64,000 nt of DNA, taken from positions 1 through 64,000 of the forward strand of contig NW_027331402.1 of the NCBI RefSeq assembly GCF_022965805.1. The letters run 5' to 3'. Below the pieces are notes generated by a model, which had not been told where the DNA came from, made no database searches, and saw only the letters and a program-made list of their open reading frames with translations. Below, in pieces: positions 11,304-37,817 of this stretch. Both the position numbers and the translations under genes were made by a program. The DNA is from Primulina eburnea. Lineage: Eukaryota > Streptophyta > Magnoliopsida > Lamiales > Gesneriaceae. The stretch's first letter is position 1. Every line of letters begins with the position of its first letter.

Positions 11304-12922
11304 TGTGACACCCTGACCCGATACAATTAAAATACAGCGGAATTTAAAATTTTCTTTCAAACATGGAAGGAGTTTCAAGATACATTTTATAAAAGTGTTT
11401 ACAAAATAACAACATGATCATTCCAATGACATAACAAAATACAAAATATCATTAGTGTGATCATGTTACAAAATGGTACAAAATAATCATCCTTCCAATC
11501 TTCGTATGCATATGACCCCCATCCACAGTCAACGTCCCGGTCCGTCGCTCTTATCTGCATCACATGAAAATAACTGAAATGAGAATAAATCTCAGCAAGT
11601 GGAACTCTTACATAGCAATGATACATAGTATACACTGTAAAACATGGCTTTTAAATCATAAATACCATCGACTCTGAAACATGAATAACGTAGCAATAAC
11701 TGTAGCAATAGCAATGGCAATAGATAGCAAAACGATGGTATTTCTCTTTTCTATGGTTGGATTGATATCAATAGTATCTGTGACTGTGGTTGCCAATATC
11801 CCATCGATATAAATCGATAACTGTGAGGGGATAAAAGCCTATGGTCGATGATCATCTAATTGCATGCAATGCTATGGCTATGATTAATCAATCCAATAAA
11901 ACATTTGAATTCTCAATAGCATTTAAGGCCGTCGTTTCGCAATCTCATAATATCTCTTGTATTCCCTTTTTAACAATAGTGAGACATCAATGCCTCCAAT
12001 AGATAATCAATGAAATCAATACATAACAATGGATCAATGGAAGGGAATAACACTTTGAAACCTTTAAAACACAATACATATAATATCATGTGAGCAAAAA
12101 GGATGAAATTCCACTTACAAACCAATAGAACACCTCCAACTATACTCTTGGTACACCACCTACAACAATAATCCATAAATAACACCAATATCAAGACTAA
12201 ATCCAAGAGTCCATGCTAAATAATCCATAGAACCATCAAAACATCAAATCCAAAATAACCCTTAACTCGAAACCTCATTAGAATCGCACCAAAAACTTAC
12301 CTAAGCTTCCTTATACCACGGAGAACGATGATCTCAAGTCGGAAATCCAAATAACTCCAAGAATCAAAGGTAGGAAGCTAAAGAAATGGATGAAAACCCT
12401 TGCCAATGGAGGGAAAATCGGTAAAGAAGAGAAGGAATAGGATAAGGTATGGCCAACAACTCCCAAAAAGTGACTTAAAAACTCGCCCATACTTACACCG
12501 CGGGTGCGCCAACACAAGCACCGCGGGTGCGCTAAGCTCACGGCAACCAAAATAAATCCCATGCACGAACACCGCGGGTGCGGTGCTACAATTACCGCGG
12601 GTGCGGTCTCACCGCGGGTGCGGTCCTTGCACTGCCGCGGGTGCGGTGATGCCACGGCCCTCCAAAACCAAAATCATGAATAGTACACCGCGGGGGCACT
12701 CATCTAAGAGCGCGGGTGCACTCTACTCACGGCAATGAACAGTAACAAAACAACTAAAAATCGATTCGAAACGCTGAAACGAACAATCAACACCAACTAA
12801 CACCTCAAATAAATAATAACCAATAATACTATAGCCCAAAACACAACTATAATCATCTAATCACAAACCCAATTAACACAATAAAGCTTAAACCGTACCG
12901 TACACCGGGCTCGGCTATTACA
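11304..12922 (-). repeat. LTR of A2 (3' LTR in element sense)
   Basis: A 1619-bp partner of 17513-19131, with ends TGTGACACC and GGCTATTACA. The GC-rich motif cluster is at 12496-12722. Confidence 0.96.
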
Positions 12923-12937
12923 ATCTCCCCTCCTTAG
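12923..12937 (-). other. Polypurine tract of A2
   Basis: A purine run (AAGGAGGGGAGAT in sense) directly before the 3' LTR, identical to that of A1. Confidence 0.85.
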
Positions 12938-12962
12938 AGGAATTTCGTCCTCGAAATTGACG

Positions 12963-15900
12963 TCACGGCACGAACAACTCAGGATACCTCTCTCTCATCT
13001 CAGTCTCTGGTTCCCACGTAGCCTCCTCAATCAAATGGTTCCTCCAAAGGACTTTAACGATGCCGATCTCTTTGTTCCTCAGAACTCTAACTGTGCGATC
13101 CAGAATCTGAATCGGAATCTCATGGTAAGTCAGACTCGGCGTCAAGTCCAATGGCTCATGGCGAAGAACATGGGAAGGATCTGCAATATACTTCCTGAGC
13201 ATCGATACGTGAAACACATTATGGACTCTGTCAAGATCGGGCGGTAGGGCTAATCTGTAGGCTCGGTCACCCACTCTGTCCAATATCTCGAATGGACCAA
13301 TGAATCTAGGGCTCAACTTGCCCTTCTTGCCAAATCGCATCACACCCTTGAGAGGTGCTATCTTCAGAAAAACATGATCGCCAACCTCGAACTGCAAAGG
13401 TCTACGACGAACGTCTGCATAGCTCTTCTGTCTGGACTGAGCAGTCTTCATCCTCTCTCTGATAACTGCAACAACATCGGCAGTCTGCTGGACCAACTCG
13501 GGACCCAACATCTTCCTCTCTCCAACCTCATCCCAAAACAAAGGGGATCTGCACTTCCTGCCATAAAGTGCCTCATACGGTGCCATGCCAATCGTCGCCT
13601 GGTAGCTATTGTTGTACGTGAACTCCACAAGAGGCAACTTGGAATCCCAGCTACCAGAATAGTCAATAGTACAAGCTCTGAGCATATCCTCCAGAATCTG
13701 AATGACTCTCTCTGACTGACCGTCGCTCTGAGGATGATAAGCTGTACTGAAAGCTAATCGAGAACCCATAGCTCTGTGCAAACTCTTCCAGAACTCTGAG
13801 GTAAATCTAGGGTCACGATCAGACACAATCGACACGGGCACACCATGAAGTCTAACAATCTCTGCAATGTAATCCTCGGCATACTGAGACATCGAATACG
13901 TCGTCTTGACTGGGAGAAAGTGCGCTGACTTGGTCAATCTATCAACAATAACCCAAATGGAATTGAAACCCTTCTGCGTCCTGGGTAAACCAGTCACGAA
14001 ATCCATAGTGATATGCTCCCACTTCCACTGAGGAATCGGCAAAGAAAGCAATGTCCCAGCAGGTCTCTGGTGCTCAATCTTTACCTGCTGACAAGTAAGG
14101 CACTGAGAAATGAACAAAGCAATATCTCTCTTCATACCTGGCCACCAGTAGAGTCGACGAAGATCCTGATACATCTTCGTACTGCCTGGATGAATCGAAT
14201 AAGGTGCGGTATGAGCCTCTGTCAAGACGTCTCTACGAATATCGTCGCCAGAAGGAACACAAATGCGGCCTCTGAAAGTTACCAAATCATCACCATTCAG
14301 ACTAAACTCTGAATTCCCTCTAGCCTCGGCTCTAGCTCTCAACTCTGCCAACTGAACATCAGTCGACTGCTCTCTACGGATCCTGTCCGTCAATGTAGAT
14401 CGAATGACCAACGCTGAAAAGCGAGCAATGGTCCCTGGAATCACCAGATCAATCTCCTCTCTCTGCAAATCCATCAACAATGGTCTCTGAATCAAAGAAC
14501 TCAATGAAGCACTCGACTTGCGGCTCAAAGCATCAGCCACAACATTCGCCTTCCCTGGGTGATAACTGATCGTCACATCGTAATCCTTGACAAGCTCTAA
14601 CCACCTCCTCTGTCGCATATTGAGCTCTTTCTGCGAGAACAGATACTTCAAACTCTTGTGGTCTGTGAAGATCTCACACTTTTCGCCATACAGATAATGT
14701 CTCCAAATCTTAAGGGCGAAAACCACAGCTGCAAGCTCCAAATCGTGCGTCGGATAATTCTTCTCATAATCCTTCAACTGGCGAGACGCATAGGCAATGA
14801 CCTTACCTCGCTGCATCAACACTGCACCAAGGCCTCTCTTCGACGCATCGGTATAGACCACAAAATCCTCTGAACCACTGGGCAAAGAAAGAACAGGAGC
14901 TGTCGTCAATCTGTCCTTCAACTCCTGAAATGCACTCTGGCAATCGATAGACCACTCGAACTTCACAGTCTTCCTCGTCAGATTGGACAATGGCAGGGCA
15001 ATCTTGGAGAAACCTGAAATGAAACGACGATAGTAACCCGCCAAACCGAGGAAACTGCGTACCTCAGAAACAGTGGTAGGAATAGGCCAACTCCGAATCG
15101 CCTCTATCTTCAACGGATCAACAGCAATGCCATCTCTCGAAACCACATGGCCTAGAAAAGAAATCTGATCTAGCCAAAACTCACACTTCTTCAACTTGGC
15201 AAACAACCTCTTCTCTCGCAACAACTGAAGCACCACTCTGAGATGCTCTGCATGAAGCTCTCTGGATTTGGAATAGATCAGGATATCGTCGATGAAAACA
15301 ATAACGAAGCTATCCAGATAAGGCTTGAACACACGGTTCATCAGATCCATGAAGACTGAAGGGGCATTGGTCAACCCAAAAGACATGACAAGAAACTCAT
15401 AGTGACCGTACCTGGTCCGGAAAGCTGTCTTAGGGATATCAGACTCCCTAACCTTCAACTGATAGTAGCCAGACCGAAGATCAATCTTCGAGAACACAGT
15501 AGCACCATGGAGCTGATCAAACAAATCATCTATCCGAGGCAACGGATACTTGTTCTTGACAGTTACTTTGTTAAGCTCCCTGTAGTCGATACACAGTCGC
15601 AAAGAACCATCCTTCTTCTTGACAAATAGAACCGGAGCTCCCCAAGGCGAAGAACTCGGACGAATAAAGCCCTTGTCTAAAAGATCCTGCAACTGAGTCT
15701 TCAACTCCTTCATCTCGGTAGGGGCCATCCGGTACGGAGCCTTAGAAATAGGAACCGTACCTGGAGCTAAATCGATCACAAACTCAACATCTCTATCCGG
15801 CGGCAAACCCGGAACATCATCCTCAAACACATCAGCAAACTCTCTCACCACATCAATATCATCTACATTCAACTTAATCAATCTATCAACATCCACAATA

Positions 15901-17381
15901 GAAGCAAGAAACCCATCGCAACCTCTACACAACAATCTCTCAGCCTCAAAGCAAGAAATAAAAGGAAGGACCAGCGAAGTACCTGTGCTGGCGAGCGCTC
16001 CTCCCTGGCCATCATCTGCAAAAGTCACCTTCTTAGCAACACAATCGATAACTGCACGGTAAGTCGAAAGCCAATCCATGCCAAGAATAACATCGAAGGC
16101 AACCATAGGGATAACAATCAAATCAGCGAATACAACTCGCTCCTCAATACGAACAGGGCACGCAAAGACAATTGATGTCGGGCACAAGACATCCCCCGAA
16201 GGTAAAACAACATTAAGCTGAATGGGAAGAACAGAAGGAACTATACCCAAAGATCTCAAAAATAATTCAGACATAAAAGAATGAGTAGCACCAGTATCAA
16301 TCAAAGTAGTAGCTACTCTGCCTGAAATCAAAATAGTACTAGAGATCAATGAAGAATCACGATTAATACCTTCCTTGGTCATCGCAAAGATACGACCCTG
16401 CACCTTCCCTTGGCTATCTCCCCTCGGGCAATTCCTAGCAACGTGACCCGCCGCGCCACAACGAAAACAAGTATGAGTGCCCAATCTGCACTCTCCTCGA
16501 TGATGCTTACCACACTTTGGACACAGTGGCTTCTCGGGATCAAATGGAACTGGCGGTGGTCTAGAACTCGGCTCCATCTTGCCCTTGCCCTTGAAACGAT
16601 CCCTGCCCCTCTGATTCGAACCCTGGCCTCTCTGAGCAATGGCCTGGTGTCTCTCCTGCCTCTCCCTGGCGATGTCCTTCTCGTCTTGCTCGGCCAACAA
16701 TGCTTTGGACACAATCTCCTTGAAAGTAACAGCTTTGGACATGTTGATATCACGACGAATCTCCGCTCTAAGGCCTCGAATGAAATGAGCGCCCTTGTCC
16801 TTGTCGTTCGAAGCAATATACGGAGCAAATAGGCAACCCTCCTCGAACTTCAGAATATACTGGCCAACATCCAAGCTCCCCTGTCTAAGTTCCAAGAACT
16901 CCGTAACCTTCCTCGCTCGAAGTGCGTCGGGGAAATACTTGTCGTAGAACAAGTCAGTGAACTCTGACCACTTCAGTGTCGCAACATCAACTCCAACTTT
17001 CGTAGCATTCCACCAAATGCGGGCAGCCTTAACCAACATGAACACTGCACAGCTAATCCTGTCTTTGTCCTCATACTGGAGATGATCGAAGATAGCTTCA
17101 AGCGCCTTGACCCACTCGACAGCAACTAGAGGATCGGTGCTACCTGCGAATTCCGGTGGATCCATTCTCTTAAAAGAAGAAAAGACGGCATCAGTGCCAA
17201 CAGCCTGAGCAACTTGACCTCTCACTTGGCCTCGACCCTGTCCTGCTCCTTGCAATCGGAGCAACTGCTGAATCTGATCGCTATGCACCTTAGCCTGCTC
17301 CTTAAGCAACTTGCCGAACTCGTCGACAACTCTCGAGGAAGAACTATCCTCACCCTCTGCCGCCTTACGCTTAGGAGGCAT
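12963..17381 (-). CDS. Gag-pol polyprotein of A2 (1472 aa)
   Basis: A complete Ty3/gypsy polyprotein that makes the particle and copies and integrates the element. Gag spans about 70-240. A Cys/His cluster [12 protein letters not shown] is at 287-298 and a CCHC knuckle at 305-318. The aspartic protease has D362-T-G. Reverse transcriptase runs about 570-750 with FIDD at 696-699. RNase H has D845, E882, D907 and D950. Integrase has a zinc-binding H1057, H1064, C1094, C1097 and a catalytic D1127, D1188, E1224 (35 residues between the last two). The GPF motif is at about 1362. The chromodomain-like tail (about 1421-1472, with [15 protein letters not shown]) is the Tekay/Del hallmark and is thought to steer insertion to heterochromatin, which fits its position inside a satellite. 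Order PR-RT-RH-IN is standard gypsy. The start is the first ATG after a 114-bp leader. No inactivating change is visible. Confidence 0.96.
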
Positions 17382-17495
17382 ACTCTACAATTGCTCACAA
17401 GACACCAATCAATATATAACAATGGATAGATGCAAGAAAACATACCCGGACAGTTGAAAGTAGACGAAGTCATATGCATTGGTCCGAAGAACACC

Positions 17496-17507
17496 GCTCT
17501 GATACCA
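17496..17507 (-). other. Primer-binding site of A2 (initiator-Met tRNA)
   Basis: TGGTATCAGAGC in sense, 5 nt inside the 5' LTR boundary, as in A1. Confidence 0.92.
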
Positions 17508-17512
17508 CTAAA

Positions 17513-19131
17513 TGTGACACCCTGACCCGATACAATTAAAATACAGCGGAATTTAAAATTTTCTTTCAAACATGGAAGGAGTTTCAAAATACATTTTATA
17601 AAAGTGTTTACAAAATAACAACATGATCATTCCAATGACATAACAAAATACAAAATATCATTAGTGTGATCATGTTACAAAATGGTACAAAATAATCATC
17701 CTTCCAATCTTCGTATGCATATGACCCCCATCCACAGTCAACGTCCCGGTCCGTCGCTCTTATCTGCATCACATGAAAATAACTGAAATGAGAATAAATC
17801 TCAGCAAGTGGAACTCTTACATAGCAATGATACATAGTATACACTGTAAAACATGGCTTTTAAATCATAAATACCATCGACTCTGAAACATGAATAACGT
17901 AGCAATAACTGTAGCAATAGCAATGGCAATAGATAGCAAAACGATGGTATTTCTCTTTTCTATGGTTGGATTGATATCAATAGTATCTGTGACTGTGGTT
18001 GCCAATATCCCATCGATATAAATCGATAACTGTGAGGGGATAAAAGCCTATGGTCGATGATCATCTAATTGCATGCAATGCTATGGCTATGATTAATCAA
18101 TCCAATAAAACATTTGAATTCTCAATAGCATTTAAGGCCGTCGTTTCGCAATCTCATAATATCTCTTGTATTCCCTTTTTAACAATAGTGAGACATCAAT
18201 GCCTCCAATAGATAATCAATGAAATCAATACATAACAATGGATCAATGGAAGGGAATAACACTTTGAAACCTTTAAAACACAATACATATAATATCATGT
18301 GAGCAAAAAGGATGAAATTCCACTTACAAACCAATAGAACACCTCCAACTATACTCTTGGTACACCACCTACAACAATAATCCATAAATAACACCAATAT
18401 CAAGACTAAATCCAAGAGTCCATGCTAAATAATCCATAGAACCATCAAAACATCAAATCCAAAATAACCCTTAACTCGAAACCTCATTAGAATCGCACCA
18501 AAAACTTACCTAAGCTTCCTTATACCACGGAGAACGATGATCTCAAGTCGGAAATCCAAATAACTCCAAGAATCAAAGGTAGGAAGCTAAAGAAATGGAT
18601 GAAAACCCTTGCCAAATGAGAGAAAATCGGAAATGAAGGAAGAAGATAGGATAAGGTATGGCCAACAACTCCCAAAAAGTACTTAAAAACTCGCCCATAC
18701 TTACACCGCGGGTGCGTCCACACAAGCACCGCGGGTGCGCTAAGCTCACGGCAACCAAAATAAATCCCATGCACGAACACCGCGGGTGCGGTGCTACAAT
18801 TACCGCGGGTGCGGTCTCACCGCGGGTGCGGTCCTTGCACTGCCGCGGGTGCGGTGATGCCACGGCCCTCCAAAACCAAAATCATGAATAGTACACCGCG
18901 GGGGCACTCATCTAAGAGCGCGGGTGCACTCTACTCACGGCAATGAACAGTAACAAAACAACTAAAAATCGATTCGAAACGCTGAAACGAACAATCAACA
19001 CCAACTAACACCTCAAATAAATAATAACCAATAATACTATAGCCCAAAACACAACTATAATCATCTAATCACAAAACCCAATTAACACAATAAAGCTTAA
19101 ACCGTACCGTACACCGGGCTCGGCTATTACA
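17513..19131 (-). repeat. LTR of A2 (5' LTR in element sense)
   Basis: A 1619-bp partner of 11304-12922 with a GC-rich motif cluster at 18703-18929. It is followed by TCTAT and then the resumed satellite unit. Confidence 0.96.
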
Positions 19132-20216
19132 TCTATGGACTTTATTTTGAGGTTGACTAGGACTAAGAAGGGGAGTGATTCTATTTTCGTTGTTGTGGAT
19201 AAATTTTCTAAGATGCCACATTTTATAGCTTGTCATAAAATCGATGATGCTTCAAACATGGCGGATTTGTTCTTTAGAGAAGTCGGTAGGTTGCACGGCA
19301 TGTCTAGGACTATTGTTTCTGGTCGCGATGTTAAATTCTTGAGTTACTTTTGGAATACTTTATGGTCTAAACTTGACACAAAATTGTTGTTTTCTACTAC
19401 TTGTCATCCTCAAACGGATGGACAAACTGAAGTTGTCAATAGAACTTTGGGAACACTTTTGCGTGCTATTCTTAAAAAGAACTTGGATTGACATTTATAT
19501 GGACTTTATTTTGGGGTGCCTAGGACTAAGAAGGGGAGGGATTCTATTTTTGTTGTTGTGGATAGATTCTCTAAGATGGCACATTTTATAGCTTGTCATA
19601 AAACCGATGATGCTTCAAACATTGCGGATTTGTTCTTTAGAGAAGTCGTTAGGTTGCATGGCATGCCTAGGACTATTGTTTCTGGTCGCGATGTTAAATT
19701 CTTGAGTTACTTTTGGAATACTTTATGGGCTAAACTTGGCACAAAATTGTTGTTTTCTACTACTTGTCATCCTCAAACGGATGGACAAACTGAAGTTGTC
19801 AATAGAACTTTGGGAACACTTTTGCGTGCTATTCTTAAAAAGAACTTGGATTGACATTTCTATGGACTTTATTTGGGGTTGCCTAGGACTAAGAAGGGGA
19901 GGGATTCTATTTTGTTGTTGTGGATAGATTCTCTAAGATGGCACATTTTATAGCTTGTCATAAAACCGATGATGCTTCAAACATTGCGGATTTGTTCTTT
20001 AGAGAAGTCGTTAGGTTGCATGGCATGCCTAGGACTATTGTTTCTGGTCGCGATGTTAAATTCTTGAGTTACTTTTGGAAGACTTTATGGGCTAAACTTG
20101 GCACAAAATTGTTGTTTTCTACTACTTGTCATCCTCAAACGGATGGACAAACTGAAGTTGTCAATAGAACTTTGGGAACACTTTTGCGTGCTATTCTTAA
20201 AAAGAACTTGGATTGA

Positions 20217-23200
20217 CATTTCTATGGACTTTATTTTGGGGTTGCCTAGGACTAAGAAGGGGAGGGATTCTATTTTTGTTGTTGTGGATAGATTCTCTAA
20301 GATGGCACATTTTATAGCTTGTCATAAAACCGATGATGCTTCAAACATTGCGGATTTGTTCTTTAGAGAAGTCGTTAGGTTGCATGGCATGCCTAGGACT
20401 ATTGTTTCTGGTCGCGATGTTAAATTCTTGAGTTACTTTTGGAAGACTTTATGGGCTAAACTTGGCACAAAATTGTTGTTTTCTACTACTTGTCATCCTC
20501 AAACGGATGGACAAACTGAAGTTGTCAATAGAACTTTGGGAACACTTTTGCGTGCTATTCTTAAAAAGAACTTGGATTGACATTTCTATGGACTTTATTT
20601 TGGGGTTGCCTAGGACTAAGAAGGGGAGGGATTCTATTTTTGTTGTTGTGGATAGATTCTCTAAGATGGCACATTTTATAGCTTGTCATAAAACCGATGA
20701 TGCTTCAAACATTGCGGATTTGTTCTTTAGAGAAGTCGTTAGGTTGCATGGCATGCCTAGGACTATTGTTTCTGGTCGCGATGTTAAATTCTTGAGTTAC
20801 TTTTGGAAGACTTTATGGGCTAAACTTGGCACAAAATTGTTGTTTTCTACTACTTGTCATCCTCAAACGGATGGACAAACTGAAGTTGTCAATAGAACTT
20901 TGGGAACACTTTTGCGTGCTATTCTTAAAAAGAACTTGGATTGACATTTCTATGGACTTTATTTTGGGGTTGCCTAGGACTAAGAAGGGGAGGGATTCTA
21001 TTTTTGTTGTTGTGGATAGATTCTCTAAGATGGCACATTTTATAGCTTGTCATAAAACCGATGATGCTTCAAACATTGCGGATTTGTTCTTTAGAGAAGT
21101 CGTTAGGTTGCATGGCATGCCTAGGACTATTGTTTCTGGTCGCGATGTTAAATTCTTGAGTTACTTTTGGAAGACTTTATGGGCTAAACTTGGCACAAAA
21201 TTGTTGTTTTCTACTACTTGTCATCCTCAAACGGATGGACAAACTGAAGTTGTCAATAGAACTTTGGGAACACTTTTGCGTGCTATTCTTAAAAAGAACT
21301 TGGATTGACATTTCTATGGACTTTATTTTGGGGTTGCCTAGGACTAAGAAGGGGAGGGATTCTATTTTTGTTGTTGTGGATAGATTCTCTAAGATGGCAC
21401 ATTTTATAGCTTGTCATAAAACCGATGATGCTTCAAACATTGCGGATTTGTTCTTTAGAGAAGTCGTTAGGTTGCATGGCATGCCTAGGACTATTGTTTC
21501 TGGTCGCGATGTTAAATTCTTGAGTTACTTTTGGAAGACTTTATGGGCTAAACTTGGCACAAAATTGTTGTTTTCTACTACTTGTCATCCTCAAACGGAT
21601 GGACAAACTGAAGTTGTCAATAGAACTTTGGGAACACTTTTGCGTGCTATTCTTAAAAAGAACTTGGATTGACATTTCTATGGACTTTATTTTGGGGTTG
21701 CCTAGGACTAAGAAGGGGAGGGATTCTATTTTTGTTGTTGTGGATAGATTCTCTAAGATGGCACATTTTATAGCTTGTCATAAAACCGATGATGCTTCAA
21801 ACATTGCGGATTTGTTCTTTAGAGAAGTCGTTAGGTTGCATGGCATGCCTAGGACTATTGTTTCTGGTCGCGATGTTAAATTCTTGAGTTACTTTTGGAA
21901 GACTTTATGGGCTAAACTTGGCACAAAATTGTTGTTTTCTACTACTTGTCATCCTCAAACGGATGGACAAACTGAAGTTGTCAATAGAACTTTGGGAACA
22001 CTTTTGCGTGCTATTCTTAAAAAGAACTTGGATTGACATTTCTATGGACTTTATTTTGGGGTTGCCTAGGACTAAGAAGGGGAGGGATTCTATTTTTGTT
22101 GTTGTGGATAGATTCTCTAAGATGGCACATTTTATAGCTTGTCATAAAACCGATGATGCTTCAAACATTGCGGATTTGTTCTTTAGAGAAGTCGTTAGGT
22201 TGCATGGCATGCCTAGGACTATTGTTTCTGGTCGCGATGTTAAATTCTTGAGTTACTTTTGGAAGACTTTATGGGCTAAACTTGGCACAAAATTGTTGTT
22301 TTCTACTACTTGTCATCCTCAAACGGATGGACAAACTGAAGTTGTCAATAGAACTTTGGGAACACTTTTGCGTGCTATTCTTAAAAAGAACTTGGATTGA
22401 CATTTCTATGGACTTTATTTTGGGGTTGCCTAGGACTAAGAAGGGGAGGGATTCTATTTTTGTTGTTGTGGATAGATTCTCTAAGATGGCACATTTTATA
22501 GCTTGTCATAAAACCGATGATGCTTCAAACATTGCGGATTTGTTCTTTAGAGAAGTCGTTAGGTTGCATGGCATGCCTAGGACTATTGTTTCTGGTCGCG
22601 ATGTTAAATTCTTGAGTTACTTTTGGAAGACTTTATGGGCTAAACTTGGCACAAAATTGTTGTTTTCTACTACTTGTCATCCTCAAACGGATGGACAAAC
22701 TGAAGTTGTCAATAGAACTTTGGGAACACTTTTGCGTGCTATTCTTAAAAAGAACTTGGATTGACATTTCTATGGACTTTATTTTGGGGTTGCCTAGGAC
22801 TAAGAAGGGGAGGGATTCTATTTTTGTTGTTGTGGATAGATTCTCTAAGATGGCACATTTTATAGCTTGTCATAAAACCGATGATGCTTCAAACATTGCG
22901 GATTTGTTCTTTAGAGAAGTCGTTAGGTTGCATGGCATGCCTAGGACTATTGTTTCTGGTCGCGATGTTAAATTCTTGAGTTACTTTTGGAAGACTTTAT
23001 GGGCTAAACTTGGCACAAAATTGTTGTTTTCTACTACTTGTCATCCTCAAACGGATGGACAAACTGAAGTTGTCAATAGAACTTTGGGAACACTTTTGCG
23101 TGCTATTCTTAAAAAGAACTTGGATTGACATTTCTATGGACTTTATTTTGGGGTTGCCTAGGACTAAGAAGGGGAGGGATTCTATTTTTGTTGTTGTGGA

Positions 23201-26200
23201 TAGATTCTCTAAGATGGCACATTTTATAGCTTGTCATAAAACCGATGATGCTTCAAACATTGCGGATTTGTTCTTTAGAGAAGTCGTTAGGTTGCATGGC
23301 ATGCCTAGGACTATTGTTTCTGGTCGCGATGTTAAATTCTTGAGTTACTTTTGGAAGACTTTATGGGCTAAACTTGGCACAAAATTGTTGTTTTCTACTA
23401 CTTGTCATCCTCAAACGGATGGACAAACTGAAGTTGTCAATAGAACTTTGGGAACACTTTTGCGTGCTATTCTTAAAAAGAACTTGGATTGACATTTCTA
23501 TGGACTTTATTTTGGGGTTGCCTAGGACTAAGAAGGGGAGGGATTCTATTTTTGTTGTTGTGGATAGATTCTCTAAGATGGCACATTTTATAGCTTGTCA
23601 TAAAACCGATGATGCTTCAAACATTGCGGATTTGTTCTTTAGAGAAGTCGTTAGGTTGCATGGCATGCCTAGGACTATTGTTTCTGGTCGCGATGTTAAA
23701 TTCTTGAGTTACTTTTGGAAGACTTTATGGGCTAAACTTGGCACAAAATTGTTGTTTTCTACTACTTGTCATCCTCAAACGGATGGACAAACTGAAGTTG
23801 TCAATAGAACTTTGGGAACACTTTTGCGTGCTATTCTTAAAAAGAACTTGGATTGACATTTCTATGGACTTTATTTTGGGGTTGCCTAGGACTAAGAAGG
23901 GGAGGGATTCTATTTTTGTTGTTGTGGATAGATTCTCTAAGATGGCACATTTTATAGCTTGTCATAAAACCGATGATGCTTCAAACATTGCGGATTTGTT
24001 CTTTAGAGAAGTCGTTAGGTTGCATGGCATGCCTAGGACTATTGTTTCTGGTCGCGATGTTAAATTCTTGAGTTACTTTTGGAAGACTTTATGGGCTAAA
24101 CTTGGCACAAAATTGTTGTTTTCTACTACTTGTCATCCTCAAACGGATGGACAAACTGAAGTTGTCAATAGAACTTTGGGAACACTTTTGCGTGCTATTC
24201 TTAAAAAGAACTTGGATTGACATTTCTATGGACTTTATTTTGGGGTTGCCTAGGACTAAGAAGGGGAGGGATTCTATTTTTGTTGTTGTGGATAGATTCT
24301 CTAAGATGGCACATTTTATAGCTTGTCATAAAACCGATGATGCTTCAAACATTGCGGATTTGTTCTTTAGAGAAGTCGTTAGGTTGCATGGCATGCCTAG
24401 GACTATTGTTTCTGGTCGCGATGTTAAATTCTTGAGTTACTTTTGGAAGACTTTATGGGCTAAACTTGGCACAAAATTGTTGTTTTCTACTACTTGTCAT
24501 CCTCAAACGGATGGACAAACTGAAGTTGTCAATAGAACTTTGGGAACACTTTTGCGTGCTATTCTTAAAAAGAACTTGGATTGACATTTCTATGGACTTT
24601 ATTTTGGGGTTGCCTAGGACTAAGAAGGGGAGGGATTCTATTTTTGTTGTTGTGGATAGATTCTCTAAGATGGCACATTTTATAGCTTGTCATAAAACCG
24701 ATGATGCTTCAAACATTGCGGATTTGTTCTTTAGAGAAGTCGTTAGGTTGCATGGCATGCCTAGGACTATTGTTTCTGGTCGCGATGTTAAATTCTTGAG
24801 TTACTTTTGGAAGACTTTATGGGCTAAACTTGGCACAAAATTGTTGTTTTCTACTACTTGTCATCCTCAAACGGATGGACAAACTGAAGTTGTCAATAGA
24901 ACTTTGGGAACACTTTTGCGTGCTATTCTTAAAAAGAACTTGGATTGACATTTCTATGGACTTTATTTTGGGGTTGCCTAGGACTAAGAAGGGGAGGGAT
25001 TCTATTTTTGTTGTTGTGGATAGATTCTCTAAGATGGCACATTTTATAGCTTGTCATAAAACCGATGATGCTTCAAACATTGCGGATTTGTTCTTTAGAG
25101 AAGTCGTTAGGTTGCATGGCATGCCTAGGACTATTGTTTCTGGTCGCGATGTTAAATTCTTGAGTTACTTTTGGAAGACTTTATGGGCTAAACTTGGCAC
25201 AAAATTGTTGTTTTCTACTACTTGTCATCCTCAAACGGATGGACAAACTGAAGTTGTCAATAGAACTTTGGGAACACTTTTGCGTGCTATTCTTAAAAAG
25301 AACTTGGATTGACATTTCTATGGACTTTATTTTGGGGTTGCCTAGGACTAAGAAGGGGAGGGATTCTATTTTTGTTGTTGTGGATAGATTCTCTAAGATG
25401 GCACATTTTATAGCTTGTCATAAAACCGATGATGCTTCAAACATTGCGGATTTGTTCTTTAGAGAAGTCGTTAGGTTGCATGGCATGCCTAGGACTATTG
25501 TTTCTGGTCGCGATGTTAAATTCTTGAGTTACTTTTGGAAGACTTTATGGGCTAAACTTGGCACAAAATTGTTGTTTTCTACTACTTGTCATCCTCAAAC
25601 GGATGGACAAACTGAAGTTGTCAATAGAACTTTGGGAACACTTTTGCGTGCTATTCTTAAAAAGAACTTGGATTGACATTTCTATGGACTTTATTTTGGG
25701 GTTGCCTAGGACTAAGAAGGGGAGGGATTCTATTTTTGTTGTTGTGGATAGATTCTCTAAGATGGCACATTTTATAGCTTGTCATAAAACCGATGATGCT
25801 TCAAACATTGCGGATTTGTTCTTTAGAGAAGTCGTTAGGTTGCATGGCATGCCTAGGACTATTGTTTCTGGTCGCGATGTTAAATTCTTGAGTTACTTTT
25901 GGAAGACTTTATGGGCTAAACTTGGCACAAAATTGTTGTTTTCTACTACTTGTCATCCTCAAACGGATGGACAAACTGAAGTTGTCAATAGAACTTTGGG
26001 AACACTTTTGCGTGCTATTCTTAAAAAGAACTTGGATTGACATTTCTATGGACTTTATTTTGGGGTTGCCTAGGACTAAGAAGGGGAGGGATTCTATTTT
26101 TGTTGTTGTGGATAGATTCTCTAAGATGGCACATTTTATAGCTTGTCATAAAACCGATGATGCTTCAAACATTGCGGATTTGTTCTTTAGAGAAGTCGTT

Positions 26201-27496
26201 AGGTTGCATGGCATGCCTAGGACTATTGTTTCTGGTCGCGATGTTAAATTCTTGAGTTACTTTTGGAAGACTTTATGGGCTAAACTTGGCACAAAATTGT
26301 TGTTTTCTACTACTTGTCATCCTCAAACGGATGGACAAACTGAAGTTGTCAATAGAACTTTGGGAACACTTTTGCGTGCTATTCTTAAAAAGAACTTGGA
26401 TTGACATTTCTATGGACTTTATTTTGGGGTTGCCTAGGACTAAGAAGGGGAGGGATTCTATTTTTGTTGTTGTGGATAGATTCTCTAAGATGGCACATTT
26501 TATAGCTTGTCATAAAACCGATGATGCTTCAAACATTGCGGATTTGTTCTTTAGAGAAGTCGTTAGGTTGCATGGCATGCCTAGGACTATTGTTTCTGGT
26601 CGCGATGTTAAATTCTTGAGTTACTTTTGGAAGACTTTATGGGCTAAACTTGGCACAAAATTGTTGTTTTCTACTACTTGTCATCCTCAAACGGATGGAC
26701 AAACTGAAGTTGTCAATAGAACTTTGGGAACACTTTTGCGTGCTATTCTTAAAAAGAACTTGGATTGACATTTCTATGGACTTTATTTTGGGGTTGCCTA
26801 GGACTAAGAAGGGGAGGGATTCTATTTTTGTTGTTGTGGATAGATTCTCTAAGATGGCACATTTTATAGCTTGTCATAAAACCGATGATGCTTCAAACAT
26901 TGCGGATTTGTTCTTTAGAGAAGTCGTTAGGTTGCATGGCATGCCTAGGACTATTGTTTCTGGTCGCGATGTTAAATTCTTGAGTTACTTTTGGAAGACT
27001 TTATGGGCTAAACTTGGCACAAAATTGTTGTTTTCTACTACTTGTCATCCTCAAACGGATGGACAAACTGAAGTTGTCAATAGAACTTTGGGAACACTTT
27101 TGCGTGCTATTCTTAAAAAGAACTTGGATTGACATTTCTATGGACTTTATTTTGGGGTTGCCTAGGACTAAGAAGGGGAGGGATTCTATTTTTGTTGTTG
27201 TGGATAGATTCTCTAAGATGGCACATTTTATAGCTTGTCATAAAACCGATGATGCTTCAAACATTGCGGATTTGTTCTTTAGAGAAGTCGTTAGGTTGCA
27301 TGGCATGCCTAGGACTATTGTTTCTGGTCGCGATGTTAAATTCTTGAGTTACTTTTGGAAGACTTTATGGGCTAAACTTGGCACAAAATTGTTGTTTTCT
27401 ACTACTTGTCATCCTCAAACGGATGGACAAACTGAAGTTGTCAATAGAACTTTGGGAACACTTTTGCGTGCTATTCTTAAAAAGAACTTGGATTGA
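20217..27496 (+). repeat. Homogenized core: 20 successive units of exactly 364 bp
   Basis: Unit ends (the TGA after AACTTGGAT) fall at 20216, 20580, 20944 and so on in exact 364-bp steps up to 27496. Every translated unit is identical, and I saw no nucleotide difference while reading. Units before 20216 (363 and 362 bp) and after 27496 (363 bp, or frame-changing) carry indels. Confidence 0.85.
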
Positions 27497-27740
27497 CATT
27501 TCTATGGACTTTATTTTGGGTTGCCTAGGACTAAGAAGGGGAGGGATTCTATTTTTGTTGTTGTGGATAGATTCTCTAAGATGGCACATTTTATAGCTTG
27601 TCATAAAACCGATGATGCTTCAAACATTGCGGATTTGTTCTTTAGAGAAGTCGTTAGGTTGCATGGCATGCCTAGGACTATTGTTTCTGGTCGCGATGTT
27701 AAATTCTTGAGTTACTTTTGGAAGACTTTATGGGCTAAAC

Positions 27741-28586
27741 TTGGCACAAAATTGTTGTTTTCTACTACTTGTCATCCTCAAACGGATGGACAAACTGAAG
27801 TTGTCAATAGAACTTTGGGAACACTTTTGCGTGCTATTCTTAAAAAGAACTTGGATTGACATTTCTATGGACTTTATTTTGGGGTTGCCTAGGACTAAGA
27901 AGGGGAGGGATTCTATTTTTGTTGTTGTGGATAGATTCTCTAAGATGGCACATTTTATAGCTTGTCATAAAACCGATGATGCTTCAAACATTGCGGATTT
28001 GTTCTTTAGAGAAGTCGTTAGGTTGCATGGCATGCCTAGGACTATTGTTTCTGGTCGCGATGTTAAATTCTTGAGTTACTTTTGGAAGACTTTATGGGCT
28101 AAACTTGGCACAAAATTGTTGTTTTCTACTACTTGTCATCCTCAAACGGATGGACAAACTGAAGTTGTCAATAGAACTTTGGGAACACTTTTGCGTGCTA
28201 TTCTTAAAAGAACTTGGATTGACATTTCTATGGACTTTATTTTGGGGTTGCCTAGGACTAAGAAGGGGAGGGATTCTATTTTTGTTGTTGTGGATAGATT
28301 CTCTAAGATGGCACATTTTATAGCTTGTCATAAAACCGATGATGCTTCAAACATTGCGGATTTGTTCTTTAGAGAAGTCGTTAGGTTGCATGGCATGCCT
28401 AGGACTATTGTTTCTGGTCGCGATGTTAAATTCTTGAGTTACTTTTGGAAGACTTTATGGGCTAAACTTGGCACAAAATTGTTGTTTTCTACTACTTGTC
28501 ATCCTCAAACGGATGGACAAACTGAAGTTGTCAATAGAACTTTGGGAACACTTTTGCGTGCTATTCTTAAAAAGAACTTGGATTGA
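27741..28586 (+). other. In-frame fusion of two satellite units (281-codon open frame)
   Basis: One A is missing from the A-run at the unit junction near 28206, so that unit is 363 bp (121 codons) and two integrase cores read through in one frame ([14 protein letters not shown]). A similar junction lies near 29298. Both lack the middle catalytic Asp. This is a length-variant by-product rather than a gene. Confidence 0.7.
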
Positions 28587-29460
28587 CATTTCTATGGACT
28601 TTATTTTGGGGTTGCCTAGGACTAAGAAGGGGAGGGATTCTATTTTGTTGTTGTGGATAGATTCTCTAAGATGGCACATTTTATAGCTTGTCATAAAACC
28701 GATGATGCTTCAAACATTGCGGATTTGTTCTTTAGAGAAGTCGTTAGGTTGCATGGCATGCCTAGGACTATTGTTTCTGGTCGCGATGTTAAATTCTTGA
28801 GTTACTTTTGGAAGACTTTATGGGCTAAACTTGGCACAAAATTGTTGTTTTCTACTACTTGTCATCCTCAAACGGATGGACAAACTGAAGTTGTCAATAG
28901 AACTTTGGGAACACTTTTGCGTGCTATTCTTAAAAAGAACTTGGATTGACATTTCTATGGACTTTATTTTGGGGTTGCCTAGGACTAAGAAGGGGAGGGA
29001 TTCTATTTTTGTTGTTGTGGATAGATTCTCTAAGATGGCACATTTTATAGCTTGTCATAAAACCGATGATGCTTCAAACATTGCGGATTTGTTCTTTAGA
29101 GAAGTCGTTAGGTTGCATGGCATGCCTAGGACTATTGTTTCTGGTCGCGATGTTAAATTCTTGAGTTACTTTTGGAAGACTTTATGGGCTAAACTTGGCA
29201 CAAAATTGTTGTTTTCTACTACTTGTCATCCTCAAACGGATGGACAAACTGAAGTTGTCAATAGAACTTTGGGAACACTTTTGCGTGCTATTCTTAAAAG
29301 AACTTGGATTGACATTTCTATGGACTTTATTTTGGGGTTTGCCTAGGACTAAGAAGGGGAGGGATTCTATTTTCGTTGTTGTGAATAGATTCTCTAAAAG
29401 AGGGCACATTTTATAAATAGCTTTGTCATAAAACCGATGATGCGTCAAACATTGCGGATT

Positions 29461-30463
29461 GAACCTTCGAAGCACTTGCCTACGACATCCGCACAAGCAA
29501 CGATCGACAAACGCCACAAAGTTAAAAACTTTGATAAGTTTGATTTGATTTGACAAAGCTTGGCTTTGAAAAAGTTAAGAGAAAATTCTCAAAGTTTGAT
29601 AACTCAAAATATTATGTGTATTGCGTTGTAATTTTTTCGTCCAACATAGTCAATATATCAAAAGATATCAAAAATCTAGTCTCCCAAAATAATAAAACTC
29701 TAGAAAAGGAAACAAATCCGCGCAAGAAAAACAAGACACGGATCCCGTGCAGACGTCCGTAGACGGGTCCGTGTACATACTGTAAAACTCTTCAATCGGG
29801 ATCAAGCGACCACGACCCCGTGCTCACCTCCGTGTACGGGTCCGTGTAGGCACTGTATTCGCCAACTTCAAAGGGCACGGACCCTGCCTGGGTCCGTCTC
29901 CGTCCGTGGGAGCCACTGTAAAAACCCTCCCCAGCTTGTCCAGGACACGGACCCGTGTGCAGGTCCGTGTACTGGTCCGTCCAGACTCGGTAAGCAACAC
30001 CAATGTTTGAACGACTTTCCGTTGGCCTCCAAAACGTACTCCCATGCATCGCGACCTCTTCAGCTTACTCATGACTCCTTGTAGCGCCTCCTTGAATCTC
30101 TTTAGTCGGACCCCTCGTGATTGGTCCCTCCGGCAACTGCAAAGGTCCCATGCTTTCCTTGGGACGTCCACGTTCGCATTCATCCTCCCCTTCTTGGAAA
30201 GGATTTGTCCTCAAATCTTGCTCATCACCTACATCAAACAACGACAATCACTAACATTAACTATAGAACTTACGTTGTACTCCCCTGGCAAGTCGAGTTT
30301 GTAGGCGTTGTCATTGATTCCTCTCAAGTACTTGAAATGGTCCATCGCCCTAGGTAATAGCTTTGAGCGTCGCTTCTCCGGAAACCTCTCCTTCCTCAAG
30401 TGTACGCCACACCCAATCGCCCTTCTCGAATACCACCTTCTTTTTCCCCTTGTTAGCTTGGAT
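29461..30463 (-). mobile_element. Truncated gypsy family C end: partial 3' LTR plus pol tail
   Basis: 29461-30182 matches the family C LTR (compare 53748-54465) but lacks roughly its first 200 bp on this side, where it joins the satellite directly. A CACGGACC-type motif cluster lies at about 29737-29985. From 30183 the purine tract and pol tail follow in minus sense ([43 protein letters not shown]), with several small indels. Homology ends near 30463 around KKVVFEKGD. It is a non-functional remnant. Confidence 0.85.
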
Positions 30464-30619
30464 ATCTTCGAAACATGTCCTAGAAAAAAATCTGTAGTTT
30501 CAACTTGGAAAAATCTTGATGATAGCAATTTTTTGAAATTGGATTTAAGATAGATAGTTTGAATATTATTATGGTCATTCATGGCAAGTGCCCTGGCATT
30601 GTTAGAGTTGCCACGTCAT
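30464..30619. other. Unassigned spacer between family C remnant and copia D1
   Basis: About 156 AT-rich bases with no match to other parts of the window that I can see and no convincing frame. The word CATTGTTAGAG near 30597 repeats the junction at 30617-30627, where the D1 LTR begins. Confidence 0.5.
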
Positions 30620-32761
30620 TGTTAGAGTAGGTGCCCGTCGAGCCAAGTGTTGGCCGAGTGTTCACAATGAAACTCTATGAATAATGCAGTCTTTATTTAA
30701 TAATATTTGAAATTATTACTTTGGCAAATCTTTATCTGTATACCCATGCTAGCTGCATAGATAAAGCCCTTGAATATACAAATAGTAGAAAGAATATGAG
30801 ATGCTCATATGATGAGTATCATGAAACTCATATTTGTAATACTGTATATTCTAAACGGTTCCTAGTCGATTCAGCCGCCACTAAGAAGGATATAGGCCGC
30901 TCGAGTTAGAGACTAGTATCTGCGATGTGAGTACCATGTTTCATTGGTAGGGGACATTGTGATGTCCGAACATGCAGATAGGTGCTCCTTGTAGAGTGCA
31001 CTGAACAACCCTCCATAAAAGGACTTTCCAAGTGGTTCTCACTTATCGAGTGGAAAAGTCCTGGTTTATGGTTGTACAGAATTAGTCCTTATGACCCGGG
31101 ACAACATTGAGACTCTATGTGCTAGAATTACACTTTGACTTGTTTACCGACTCTCATGGGGTCATCAGGTGGCAAGGTTGGGTGTTCTGTCGAAACACAT
31201 AGGAGTCGATGCATTGTAGTCGGGGATTCACCGCTTACCTTCGGGTATGGATATCCTATGTGTTATCATGTGTATGTAGATCGAAATCTCTGGCCAGAGT
31301 ATGGTTGTAATTATGAAAGGTGTTTCATAGATTACACCATCGATGCAACTACGACATGACACATAGTATCGATTCATTGACAACTCTCGATAAACCAATG
31401 GTTGTCGAATCGATCGGGATATATGAGTTGAAGGGACCGTACTGTACGCTAACCATAATTGAATGGTTCTTGCAGGCACTATCATGTGATACCTAGGGAA
31501 TCACGTAAGCGATGCTGCTAGGCGTTTAACGTGATTGGTTGGGTACTATCAGACTTGAGTTCTGACGTTCTTACTATCAAGGAGTTGATAAGTAAGAATG
31601 GAGCAATTGGGGTATGCTCGAATAAGGACATGTTTAGTCCGAATCACATGGAGATGTGAACCCACGGCTAGTTGTATCAATGAACCATTGAGGGCCACAC
31701 AAGTACTAGCTTTGTAAATCCCGATGAGAAGTAAAAATAGTTCAATGTGTTGAACGGCTTATAAAGGAGTTTATAAGCGTAAGGAAAATTAGAAGTATGA
31801 CTTCTATAAAGGAGAAAATAGTTCAATGTGTTGAACGACTTATAAATGAGTTTATAAGTGTAAAGAAAAATAGAAGTATGACTTCTATGAGAGAAATGTA
31901 AATTTTAATTTATGGAAGTGTTCCTAAATTAAAATTTGGCCAAGTGAATAATGTAATTGAAAATTGTGATTTTCATAAACATTATTATGGACTAAATAAA
32001 TTAATTCAAGTGTTGAATTAATTAAACACTAGTGGACCTAGTAGAGTCCAAATAATTAAATTAATTCAAGTGTTGAATTAATTAAATTATATTGAGTCTT
32101 GTAGAGCTCAATTAAAATAATTATTTAACTAGTGGGACTTGGGTAAATTCAAGTAATGTTTAATTAGTCTCAAATAGTGTTTGAGATAATTAAATTTAGT
32201 CCAAAGTTTTTAATTTGATTAAAAACTATATTATATGCATGCATGGGAGGTGAAGAGTTGGGGAATACTTTTGATTAAAATAATGGTTGGAATGCAACTT
32301 TTTGTATCAACTTTTTGCAACCCCAAGACTAGATTCTCCTCCCTCATTCTACAACAATATTGGCCGAAACTTTGAACCCTTTCTCTCCCAATTTTTCTCT
32401 CATTCTTGTTCTTCAATTTGTTGAGGAAATCTTACACTTCTCTTTGAAAAATCCTCATATTTTTCTAGTGCAAAATATGAGGGGATCTACCTATTGGTGG
32501 TGGGCCTAATTTGAAGGAATTTTTCAAGGATTTGGAGGAGGGCTTGTAGTCTTCATGCCTTGAAGAGCTTTGTTGTTTGACAACAAATTGGAGCCACAAT
32601 CAACTTTTAAAGTTGATAGGTCACTTCTAAACATCCTATGTATGTTTATGATTTTGTAAATATTACACAAGATTTAACTTGGGGGTGGCCGAAATTTGTG
32701 GCTCAAAATTCGAATTTTTGCTTCCGTTGCGTTTCCGGCCACCGTAACCGGTCCGCTTTCA
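30620..32761 (+). repeat. 5' LTR of copia D1 (2142 bp)
   Basis: Long for a copia LTR. It starts TGTTAGAGTAGG and ends GGTCCGCTTTCA, and matches 37830-39981 and (inverted) 45267-47413. It contains tandemly repeated segments around 31735-31900 (GTTCAATGTGTTGAACG twice) and 31990-32090 (ATTAATTCAAGTGTTGAATT twice). It has no real gene. Confidence 0.93.
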
Positions 32762-32764
32762 AAG

Positions 32765-32777
32765 TGGGTATCAGAGC
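32765..32777 (+). other. Primer-binding site of D1 (initiator-Met tRNA), with one extra G
   Basis: It reads TGGGTATCAGAGC instead of TGGTATCAGAGC. D2 has the normal form. The extra base is either a mutation or a sequencing indel. Confidence 0.8.
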
Positions 32778-32910
32778 TAAGGTTACGGTTTTGTGTAATA
32801 TTTACGTATATATGTTGAGATCGATTTCTAACCGCTTGAGAAATTTTTTTGGTGCATGTATGGTGAAGGCCGAATTTTTTGAAGAAAAAACAAAAAAAAA
32901 AAATGTTTTT

Positions 32911-32976
32911 CGGGCAGCCCGAGGGGCTGCCCGAAAATTTCGGGCAGCATAGGGCAGCCCGAGGGGCTGCCCGAAA
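32911..32976 (+). repeat. Tandem GC hairpins in the copia leader
   Basis: CGGGCAGCCC (32911-32920) pairs with GGGCTGCCCG (32924-32933) around a 3-nt GAG loop. A second, almost identical hairpin follows at 32953-32976. The run is flanked by A/T tracts. Conserved in D2 at 45054-45117. Confidence 0.8.
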
Positions 32977-34570
32977 TGTTCAGTTTATAAAATAAAAAAA
33001 AAAAAACTTTTTTTGTTGTTGCCGGAATCCGGCGACGGAGCTCCGGCGACGGCGATGACGGCTAGGGTTTCCAAAAGTGTTTTGGACAATCTTAGTTCAT
33101 GGGCCTTGAGATGTTGGGCCATTGGATGGACAACATTATTTGTGAAATTAAATGGGCTAAGTATTTTTGGTGAAAAATGGGTTTGGGCCCTTAGTTTAAA
33201 TTTACAATTGTTGCACATATTTTCTCATAAAATAAATAATTGAAGTAGGACTTCAATTATTTATAGTAAATGGTGATTTACAAGAAATTCGATTATAAAT
33301 AAATTAATTTGAAAGTAGACAAAGGTGTTTGTATACTTTGTTAATTTAATTTATAATTGTGGCGGTTAGTGATTGGATCAAGATATATAATATTGGATCA
33401 ATTAATTATAGTGATAATTAATTGATGGTGTATGATATGTGATATTATGCATGAAGGATGATCAAAAGCCCAAGCCCAATTTGCTAGGTGTATGCTAGGA
33501 TATTTGTGTTGTAATGATTGTAATAATTATCAATTTATCAAGTGGGCTTGGTTTATGGCCCGTTCCCACCCCATGAGATGTATCCCTATGTGCCATGGAT
33601 ATTTATTTGTAAATATTAGAATAGGGGAAGATCAAGATTGGAAGATGGTGGCCTTGGTGATTATGAAGATCGAAGACATGTATATTGGATGCTAATGTAA
33701 TAATTTAGTTGCATTGCATCCCGTGCATTTACCCTAGGATTGGACCTAGGCCCGTGTTTGGCTCACACGGGCCATTAGTTTTGGGGCGATTGATCATCCT
33801 TGTATTGTTTTCTATTTATGATATATGCATGATATGTTATAAATAATGAGTATGTGCGTTATTATTATTATAATAACAAAGTTGCATGAATCCGGCAAAC
33901 ATACGATCAAACATGGCGAGCTTTTAAAATAAAATTAATGATGAGACCTTTCAAAATTAAAAACCCTCATTTTGAATAAGATTCAAAATAATATCAAGCC
34001 CGAAAAGGGGAATTATAAATTTGTTTATAATTTCCTTGTCTTCCATCGACAATGGGTGCATGATGAACGCTACCCGTACTCGGGGCTCGGCTCATATTAT
34101 TGGGGGAGCCCTGGGTGCCGGAAAGCTGTGACATCCATTGACATGGTGATGTGAACTACGTGGAACTCCCATGATTTCGGCTCATATTATTGAGGGAACT
34201 CATGGCGACCGTCCATTAAGGTTCAACATCGATGGGTAAGGCTTGACACGTGAAGATGAACGACGTCATATTATTGGGTCCTAATCAAACGTGAGACAAA
34301 AGTTTACGTTAAGGGTTGCATTGTGATGCAATTGGAAACTACCTTTTAGGATTTGTGATTGGCTGATATTATTCGGGATCATAATTCGCTAATTGGACCT
34401 TACGTACCTACTGAGGAAAGGAGTTTCCCGTTTTCACTAGAGGGTAGTGAAAGATGTCAAAACAGTGGGAGCAAATATTTATGAAGTATAAGTCCAAACT
34501 TCATATCTTACTAAATATTTAAAATAGTCATCAACATTTATCTGTTTTTACTTTTCAGTACAAATCGACA

Positions 34571-35433
34571 ATGTCTTCGATGCGCAATTCGATATCTATA
34601 ATACTCGACAAACACATATTAACTGGACCTAATTACCTCACTTGGCTAAGAAATTTGAAAATAGTCTTAAATTCGGAAAGGGTAACATATACACTAACTC
34701 AGTCGCCCCCTGTTGAGGCTCCGACTGACTGCAATCCTGAGGAATTGCAGGCTTACAAGGAATGGTGTGACCATGACTTGATAGCCAGGTGTTATATGCT
34801 GACTTCTATGAACGATGAGCTACAGAGGCGTTTTGAGGGTGCAAAGAGTGCTGCTGACATTCATTTGCATCTCAAAGAGCTCTTTGGTGAGCAAACACGA
34901 TCCTCTTAGGCATGCTACCGTCAAGGAGCTGATCACTTTGCGCATGCGAGAGGGGACCTCGGTCCATGAGCATGGCCTAAAGGTGATCGGGCTCGTGGAC
35001 AAGCTCGTTGGCATGGATCTGATCTTGCCTTCGGAGTTGACCACCGACGTGTTGCTGTTATCACTGCCTAGCTCATTTGATCCTTTTGTGGTGAACTTCA
35101 ACATGAACAAGATGGAACCGACCCTTGAGGAGTTGGTGAACATGCTTGTTACGTTTGAATCCACCATCAAGAAAGAGAAGTTGGTTCTTTATGTGGGTTC
35201 TTCATCTGGTACGAAGATTGATCCACATGGGAAGGGAAAGAAGAGTTCTTTCCAACGTCCCGAGAAGAACGTGCCCTTGTTGAGGCAATCTCCGAATCCC
35301 TGTTGAGGCAGCCAGACCAGTTAAGGCTGACAAGACTGATGATGTATGTCATCACTGCAAGAAGCCTGGACATTGGAGGCGTAATTGCAAAGAATATCTT
35401 GCCCAGAAGTGTTCTGGAAACGGTATGTTCTAA
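34571..35433 (+). pseudogene. Copia gag of D1, frameshifted
   Basis: It starts MSSMRNSISIILDKH, equivalent to the intact 286-aa gag of D2. Two single-base insertions relative to D2, near 34905 and near 35296, break the frame, so the N-terminal part (to 34909), the middle part (to 35306) and the zinc-knuckle part CHHCKKPGHWRRNC fall in different frames. It ends at the same TAA as D2 (35431-35433). The homopolymer-like indels could be uncorrected long-read errors. Confidence 0.88.
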
Positions 35434-35465
35434 ATTTAAGTAAACATTTTAATTAACTCTACTTC

Positions 35466-37815: not shown

Positions 37816-37817
37816 TG

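Follow-up and report, generated by a model that had tools for sequence, protein, structure and literature searches.

A 364-bp tandem repeat in Primulina eburnea that likely derives from the integrase core of a Ty3/gypsy retrotransposon

The first 64,000 nucleotides of Primulina eburnea contig NW_027331402.1 (NCBI RefSeq assembly GCF_022965805.1, forward strand), referred to below as the window, contain two tandem arrays of a 364-bp unit. Array 1 lies on the plus strand and consists of three pieces (1-151, 10863-11303 and 19132-29460) in which the unit is repeated head to tail; array 2 lies on the minus strand. Within and around these arrays we found the Ty3/gypsy elements A', A and B, a copia-type element and elements of a family named C, which is probably of the CRM type (Table 1). 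Tandem Repeats Finder (TRF) reported a period of 364 for both arrays, with 28.4 copies, 99% matches and a score of 20390 for 19132-29460, and with 12.7 copies and 94% matches for 48945-53550. Once the ends of the adjoining long terminal repeats (LTRs) are assigned, array 2 extends from 48946 to 53549 and holds about 12.6 units. The label satellite is used here for the head-to-tail repetition of a non-trivial unit, which both arrays display. A first-pass annotation of this sequence had already described the array at 19132-29460, and its 364-bp head-to-tail structure is borne out by TRF. The count of about 28 units given there agrees with the assembly, but the true number is doubtful, since a block of near-identical units may be a consensus. 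Together, the data presented below favor, with a probability of roughly 0.8, a likely non-coding satellite that came from a Ty3/gypsy integrase core related to probable CRM-type elements, and that was seeded by a duplication at a short homology.

Table 1. Features of the window, in order of position. LTR, long terminal repeat; ORF, open reading frame; TSD, target-site duplication; TRF, Tandem Repeats Finder.
Feature	Position	Strand	Evidence
Satellite array 1, leftmost piece	1..151	+	Bases 9-151 = unit positions 165-305; BLAST 95.1%, 143 columns
Ty3/gypsy element A', inserted in array 1	152..10862	-	LTRs 152-1769 and 9246-10862, 99.94% identical
Short LTR element inside A'	2225..5099	-	Two identical 780-bp LTRs, TSD TGATC
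Satellite array 1, middle piece	10863..11303	+	BLAST 100% over 64 bp, 96.4% over 364 bp
Ty3/gypsy element A, inserted in array 1	11304..19131	-	LTRs 99.2% identical, 1473-aa ORF
Older-type satellite unit adjoining element A	19132..19487	+	95.8% to main unit, 98.0% to array-2 unit 49769
27 near-identical main-type units (21 exactly identical), possibly consensus-corrected	19488..29308	+	BLAST, unit comparison
Degenerate last unit of array 1	29309..29460	+	BLAST 92.1%, 152 columns
Left arm	29461..40383		C 3' part (minus), 157 bp of other sequence, copia-type element 30618-39981, C integrase 39982-40383 (minus); self-comparison
Gap of 25 N	40384..40408		Between the two arms
Right arm, inverted near-copy of left	40409..48945		Copia-type element to 47413, then C integrase and 3' end (plus), LTR 48030-48945
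Satellite array 2, about 12.6 older-type units	48946..53549	-	TRF, BLAST, mean unit-unit identity 95.1%
Second C (CRM-type) element, cut by element B	53550..55299	-	LTR 53550-54465, integrase C-terminus and core
Ty3/gypsy element B, inserted in C integrase	55300..63972	+	LTRs 99.05% identical, TSD CTCTC
GC-rich ACCGCGGGTGCGGT-like runs	1416-1494, 10510-10588, 12570-12647, 18778-18855, 55512-55590, 62289-62367		In LTRs of A', A and B

The three pieces of array 1 are a single array interrupted by two Ty3/gypsy insertions, because 5-bp target-site duplications (TSDs) made of satellite sequence flank both elements. For A' the duplication is AAACT at 147-151 and 10863-10867 (unit positions 301-305), and for A it is TCTAT at 11299-11303 and 19132-19136 (unit positions 9-13). 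The two small pieces, which the first-pass annotation had listed as parts, are both recovered by BLAST (the leftmost from base 9 onward), but they belong to the same array. The middle piece holds one full unit of the older type at 10927-11290. Array 1 probably extends past the left edge of the window, because the match in the leftmost piece comes within 8 bases of that edge. At the other end its last unit abuts a C LTR from which the final ~189 bp are missing.

The translation of the unit (DISMDF...LLRAILKKN) identifies it as an integrase core, as had been proposed. A 170-aa open reading frame (ORF) spanning units matches the Pfam domain rve with E 1e-07 and 32.6 bits, which is exactly the curated cut-off. 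Searching the window by BLAST with one 364-bp unit as query located, in addition to the satellite units, two C-type integrase copies at 39981-40244 (82.8%) and 54988-55299 (84.3%). Positions 9-272 and 50-361 of the unit align to the C copies, and the unit thus lies wholly inside retrotransposon sequence.

Comparison of the unit with the C copy at 54988-55299 revealed 44 differing codons, 43 of them synonymous and only one non-synonymous. The excess of silent changes has a binomial p of 9.4e-28 against a neutral expectation of 21.7% synonymous. A Nei-Gojobori estimate over 103 codons gave a proportion of synonymous differences (pS) of 0.686, a synonymous distance (dS) of 1.85 and a proportion of non-synonymous differences (pN) of 0.0083. 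Judged from these sequence comparisons, the parent of the satellite was a sister lineage of C under strong purifying selection, and long separate from it because dS is near saturation. This parent was likely a functional, CRM-like lineage. The earlier proposal of a tandem duplication within a family C-like integrase therefore stands with respect to the Ty3/gypsy core and to the two joined sites 364 bp apart, but not with respect to C itself as the parent (pS 0.69, dS about 1.85).

The sole amino-acid difference from the C copy is a change of GAC to GGT, which replaces Asp by Gly in every unit covering the site; unit 50133 of array 2 is gapped at the first base of this codon. Both C copies that cover the site retain the Asp. 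In an alignment to a PFV integrase chain the changed Asp falls on the Asp of SDQG, which we take to be the second residue of the D,D-35-E catalytic triad. Because the exchange affects a predicted catalytic site, the integrase core in the array is predicted to be catalytically dead. The lone change may have hit a catalytic residue by chance; about 3 of the 103 codons would be catalytic. Among 331 fetched proteins the motif IV[SY]GRD occurred in none, and IV[SYLC]DR in 254.

Furthermore, 364 is not a multiple of 3, and the reading frame therefore moves by one base per unit. Together with a stop after KNLD in most units, this means that no intact integrase is expected; the ORF continues into the next unit where one A is missing. 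Unique variant codons were also counted among 3 units of array 1 and 14 of array 2, of which two are partial. With 18 synonymous and 62 non-synonymous cases, they do not depart from the neutral 21.7% synonymous (p = 0.89), and because the variation looks neutral the array is likely non-coding. A protein-coding role of the array was considered and is rejected on account of the one-base frame shift per unit, the frequent stops and the neutral variants. The array probably acts as passive heterochromatin and as a site of insertions; its role would then be that of chromatin or of a landing site and not that of a gene.

The same junction, AAGAACTTGGATTGACA, recurs between units, in agreement with the first description of the array. 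It is exact at 30 borders in array 1 and at 9 of 13 in array 2, the other 4 having one mismatch. The native C copies run on past the border, as had also been claimed, namely the 54988 copy on the downstream side (AAGAACTTAAAG) and the 39982 copy, with indels, on the upstream side (GAACCTGGGTTGG). The unit border connects two sites that lie 364 bp apart in the integrase core, as from a single tandem duplication. The seed was likely recombination or slippage at a short homology (CTT or CTTG, 3-4 bp), by which one core within one copy of the element would have been doubled in tandem; the parent element was presumably functional until shortly before this event. An exact search with the 31-base junction gave 0 matches in prokaryotic and viral contig collections, so that it is little informative.

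From this seed the array would have been enlarged by unequal exchange between misaligned units. The 12 full units of array 2 have a mean identity of 95.1%, and three pairs of units that are six units apart are more similar than this (52314/50133 98.6%, 51950/49769 98.6% and 51587/49406 97.5%). The other five of the eight pairs with this spacing have 91.7-95.6%. A three-unit stretch is thus duplicated six units apart in array 2, which is the pattern expected of unequal exchange. The remark that 364 bp corresponds to two nucleosome repeats finds no support in the unit itself, where a circular self-shift gives at best 34% identity, and 22.5% at 182 bp.

The unit-specific changes, on average 8.3 in up to 312 compared sites, permit a rough estimate of the age of the array. 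With a substitution rate of 1.3e-8 it would be about 2 million years old. With the rate of 6.1e-9 per site per year quoted for hop (PMC12371157) the estimate is about 4 million years. The two LTRs of an element differ at 9 positions in about 1620 columns for A, at 1 for A' and at 14 in about 1900 for B. Because of these few mismatches, all three insertions look younger than the array.

Two C elements adjoin array 2. Their 3' LTR ends, in opposite orientation, lie exactly at both edges of the array (unit positions about 98 and 219). The two LTRs, 48030-48945 (plus) and 53550-54465 (minus), are 916 bp each and start with TGATG after a purine tract; the plus-strand LTR ends with TATCA. The start was inferred from the purine tract and from alignment to the LTR start of the short element inside A', the window being without a 5' C LTR. 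One C ORF (47467-48423) crosses the LTR start at 48030. A second (54390-55334) contains SH3_Tf2-1 (80.1 bits) and matches rve with E 3.8e-07 but only 30.7 bits, below the cut-off of 32.6. CRM elements are described with LTRs of 299-1225 bp, termini TGATG and T/CATCA and a 5-bp TSD, and in CRM group A the polyprotein extends into the 3' LTR (PMC3059260). On sequence grounds the C elements are probable members of this group, as they share its testable features, that is the LTR termini, the LTR size and the ORF entering the 3' LTR. The satellite differs from CRM group A in that it is not an element and is derived from a related integrase. Both C elements were probably inserted into array 2, and would have reached it by this route.

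Arrays 1 and 2 most likely represent a single locus in two copies, either as an inverted duplication or as two joined haplotypes. For three successive older units of array 1, namely the 143-bp piece at 1-151, 10927 and 19132, the best match falls in turn on the consecutive array-2 units 50496, 50133 and 49769. The identities are 96.5, 98.3 and 98.0% as compared with 95.8, 98.1 and 97.2% for the next-best units, so that the match of unit 10927 is nearly tied. The sequences between the arrays are themselves inverted near-copies, with 98.2% identity over 7035 columns in a self-comparison. The left arm retains the upstream flank of the copia-type insertion in C, ending with TTTTC, and the right arm the downstream flank, beginning with TTTTC. 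The native copy reads ACTGTTTTCTACG at this site, and both arms therefore indicate one insertion site. The Pfam search placed the gag of the copia-type element in the right arm at 42594-43499. The arms around the gap may reflect an inverted duplication, a join of haplotypes or a misjoin; a choice between inverted duplication and joined haplotypes is blocked by the 25-N gap. In the left arm only, 157 bp without a self-match in the window (30461-30617) replace about 340 bp of C adjacent to the copia-type insertion.

The block at 19488-29308 calls for caution with respect to the copy number. A real expansion should inherit the private changes of the unit that was copied, and for this reason a consensus created by read correction is the more likely origin of the block. 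When the tree is rooted on C, 0.0 changes separate the main unit from the common ancestor, as opposed to 8.2-18.1 for the 14 older units. Relative-rate counts gave 0-2 for the main type and 6-11 for each older unit. With a mean of 8.3, the probability of no unit-specific change in the main type is about 2.5e-4; the older units share history and are not 14 independent tests. In an array too long to anchor, the correction of long reads could have overwritten variants with the majority state, which is identical to the ancestor. Each of the 7 indels of the block is the loss of a single base from a run of 2-5 identical bases, resembling residual error of long reads, and lies in a unit near one of the two block ends; both substitutions of the block fall in its first unit. 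Since the block carries the ancestral sequence without private changes, the copy number and the homogeneity of array 1 are suggested to be unsafe.

We consider it somewhat less probable that the block arose by genuine and very recent expansion from a unit that retained the ancestral sequence, like the young core of a large satellite. Such an expansion would account for 21 exactly identical units among 27 contiguous ones. Moreover, the main type differs at 3 columns, 2 of which match the C outgroup, from the consensus of the 14 older units and so is not simply the majority of array 2, and array 2 is not homogenised. It is the ancestral state of the main type and the homopolymer-type deletions that speak against a real expansion, as does the edge unit next to element A, in which the old-type variants persist.

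A further alternative concerns the origin of the arrays. Tandem repeats within Ogre elements seed long arrays in Lathyrus (PMC7004042), and one of the fetched proteins, P0121 (312 aa), holds two successive integrase cores. The tandem cores could similarly have been born inside a mobile element, like the 3' untranslated region (UTR) repeats of Ogre, and been spread by it, in which case the arrays would be parts of elements. This is improbable, because neither array is the internal region between a pair of LTRs within the window, the LTR ends of C face array 2 on either side, the TSDs of A' and A consist of satellite sequence, and a pattern for the satellite junction matched 0 of the 331 fetched proteins. 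Finally, the 25-N gap and the near-palindromic arms mark a difficult and partly joined assembly, but an artefact created from single integrase copies is hardly credible in view of two separate arrays, the differences of about 5% among array-2 units, the three consecutive cross-array matches (one nearly tied), two insertions with 5-bp TSDs of unit sequence and the Asp to Gly change in every unit covering the site.

Several points weigh against an integrase-derived satellite as the overall interpretation. The term satellite is based on two local arrays as assembled, with about 30 units in one and 12.6 in the other. Ordinary expansion of an old unit is at odds with the ancestral sequence of the near-identical block. 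The exact microhomology of 3-4 bp is uncertain, because of indels that the upstream native copy (39982-40383) carries close to the gap. Each C element has its outer end past the gap or past the window border, so that the TSDs of the C elements are unseen, and an intact parent of the satellite's own sub-family is absent from the 64-kb window. The first-pass annotation, which described array 1, had overlooked array 2, the TSDs, the CRM features of C, the 25-N gap and the ancestral block.

Satellites derived from retrotransposons are already known from LTR/UTR, 3'UTR and gag sequences; an integrase-core case was absent from the papers listed in our literature searches. The tandem arrays CRM1TR and CRM4TR of maize come wholly from centromeric retrotransposons, and illegitimate recombination at short homologies was proposed for them (PMC3648361). 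The Primulina repeat resembles them as a retrotransposon-derived array with a putative short-homology seed, local homogenisation and later retrotransposon insertions. However, their monomers consist of LTR and UTR (PMC3648361), whereas the present unit lies wholly in the integrase coding core and contains no LTR. The Ogre satellites of Lathyrus sativus are also retrotransposon sequence grown into long arrays, but they stem from a non-coding 3'UTR that is already tandem inside the element (PMC7004042), while here the source is coding and no enclosing element is seen. The 250-bp centromeric repeat of wheat/Aegilops and the rye repeat E3900 (as cited in PMC3648361 and PMC9659126) share with the present unit an origin in retrotransposon coding sequence, one of them from the centromeric-type Cereba; their source is gag and not integrase. 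A satellite out of the gene of a DNA-moving enzyme has a precedent in CficCl-61-40 of Chenopodium, the source of which is listed as the Tnp2 TPase region of the CACTA-like element Jozin (PMC9659126), a DNA transposon transposase in contrast to the retrotransposon integrase of the present case. In Avena the pAs120a-like tandem repeat is likewise suggested to stem from a sub-region of a Ty3/gypsy-type retroelement; it is described with similarity to Ogre/Tat and chromoviruses, and the integrase core is unnamed in the available part of that paper (PMC6543597).

Searches of the non-subscription literature, read at the level of titles and the starts of abstracts and with two of the listings confined to 25 of 96 and 15 of 28 entries, brought up no satellite with an integrase core as its unit. 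The word integrase has 0 occurrences in the main text of a review that tabulates the source regions of satellites (PMC9659126). The same count of 0 holds for the available text on the Crepis pCcE9 repeats (303-364 bp) and on Populus satellite DNA (monomers 66-364 bp), a comparison at the level of text. The portions of PMC5278356 and PMC3334964 at hand contain nothing nearer to an integrase-core satellite.

The founder of a satellite is usually lost, while here it can be read residue by residue. The visible sequence records a strongly constrained core, a single substitution at a site predicted to be catalytic, a single junction and then neutral drift. Because the founder is readable, the birth, the aging and the invasion of a satellite can be dated in one locus, which may show how new satellite DNA arises from a small accidental duplication. 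The parent gene as an outgroup can furthermore expose units that are too ancestral to be old, and so question the homogeneity of an array without reads. A more tentative and rather doubtful idea is that a centromere-type retrotransposon lineage turned its own integrase core, by then catalytically dead, into a satellite that receives insertions of living CRM relatives. The element would thus have a self-renewing landing platform that is made from the very gene responsible for its targeting and insertion.

Some further observations concern the proteins and elements mentioned above. P0121, encoded on a 1.5-kb contig, represents an apparently independent tandem duplication of the core, which keeps the Asp where the satellite has Gly; this hints that duplications of the integrase core recur. 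P0030 from Paspalum is a second candidate duplication, in which a longer stretch is repeated. P0092, although listed under Candidatus Paraburkholderia schumanniana, is a retrotransposon integrase of the plant type and probably represents host-plant DNA in a bacterial assembly.

Pfam domains RVT_1, Retrotrans_gag and Integrase_H2C2 were found in the ORF of A'. For element A the best 120 listed matches include many Primulina proteins, for example P0278 with 92% identity over 26% of the query. The short element inside A' (2.9 kb) looks like a very young non-autonomous CRM relative, and its LTR is 80.9% identical to the C LTR over 278 columns. Its 488-aa ORF is not called gag because a Pfam search up to E 0.1 gave no match. 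The LTRs of A', A and B contain GC-rich short tandem runs with a motif like ACCGCGGGTGCGGT, which are common to different families.

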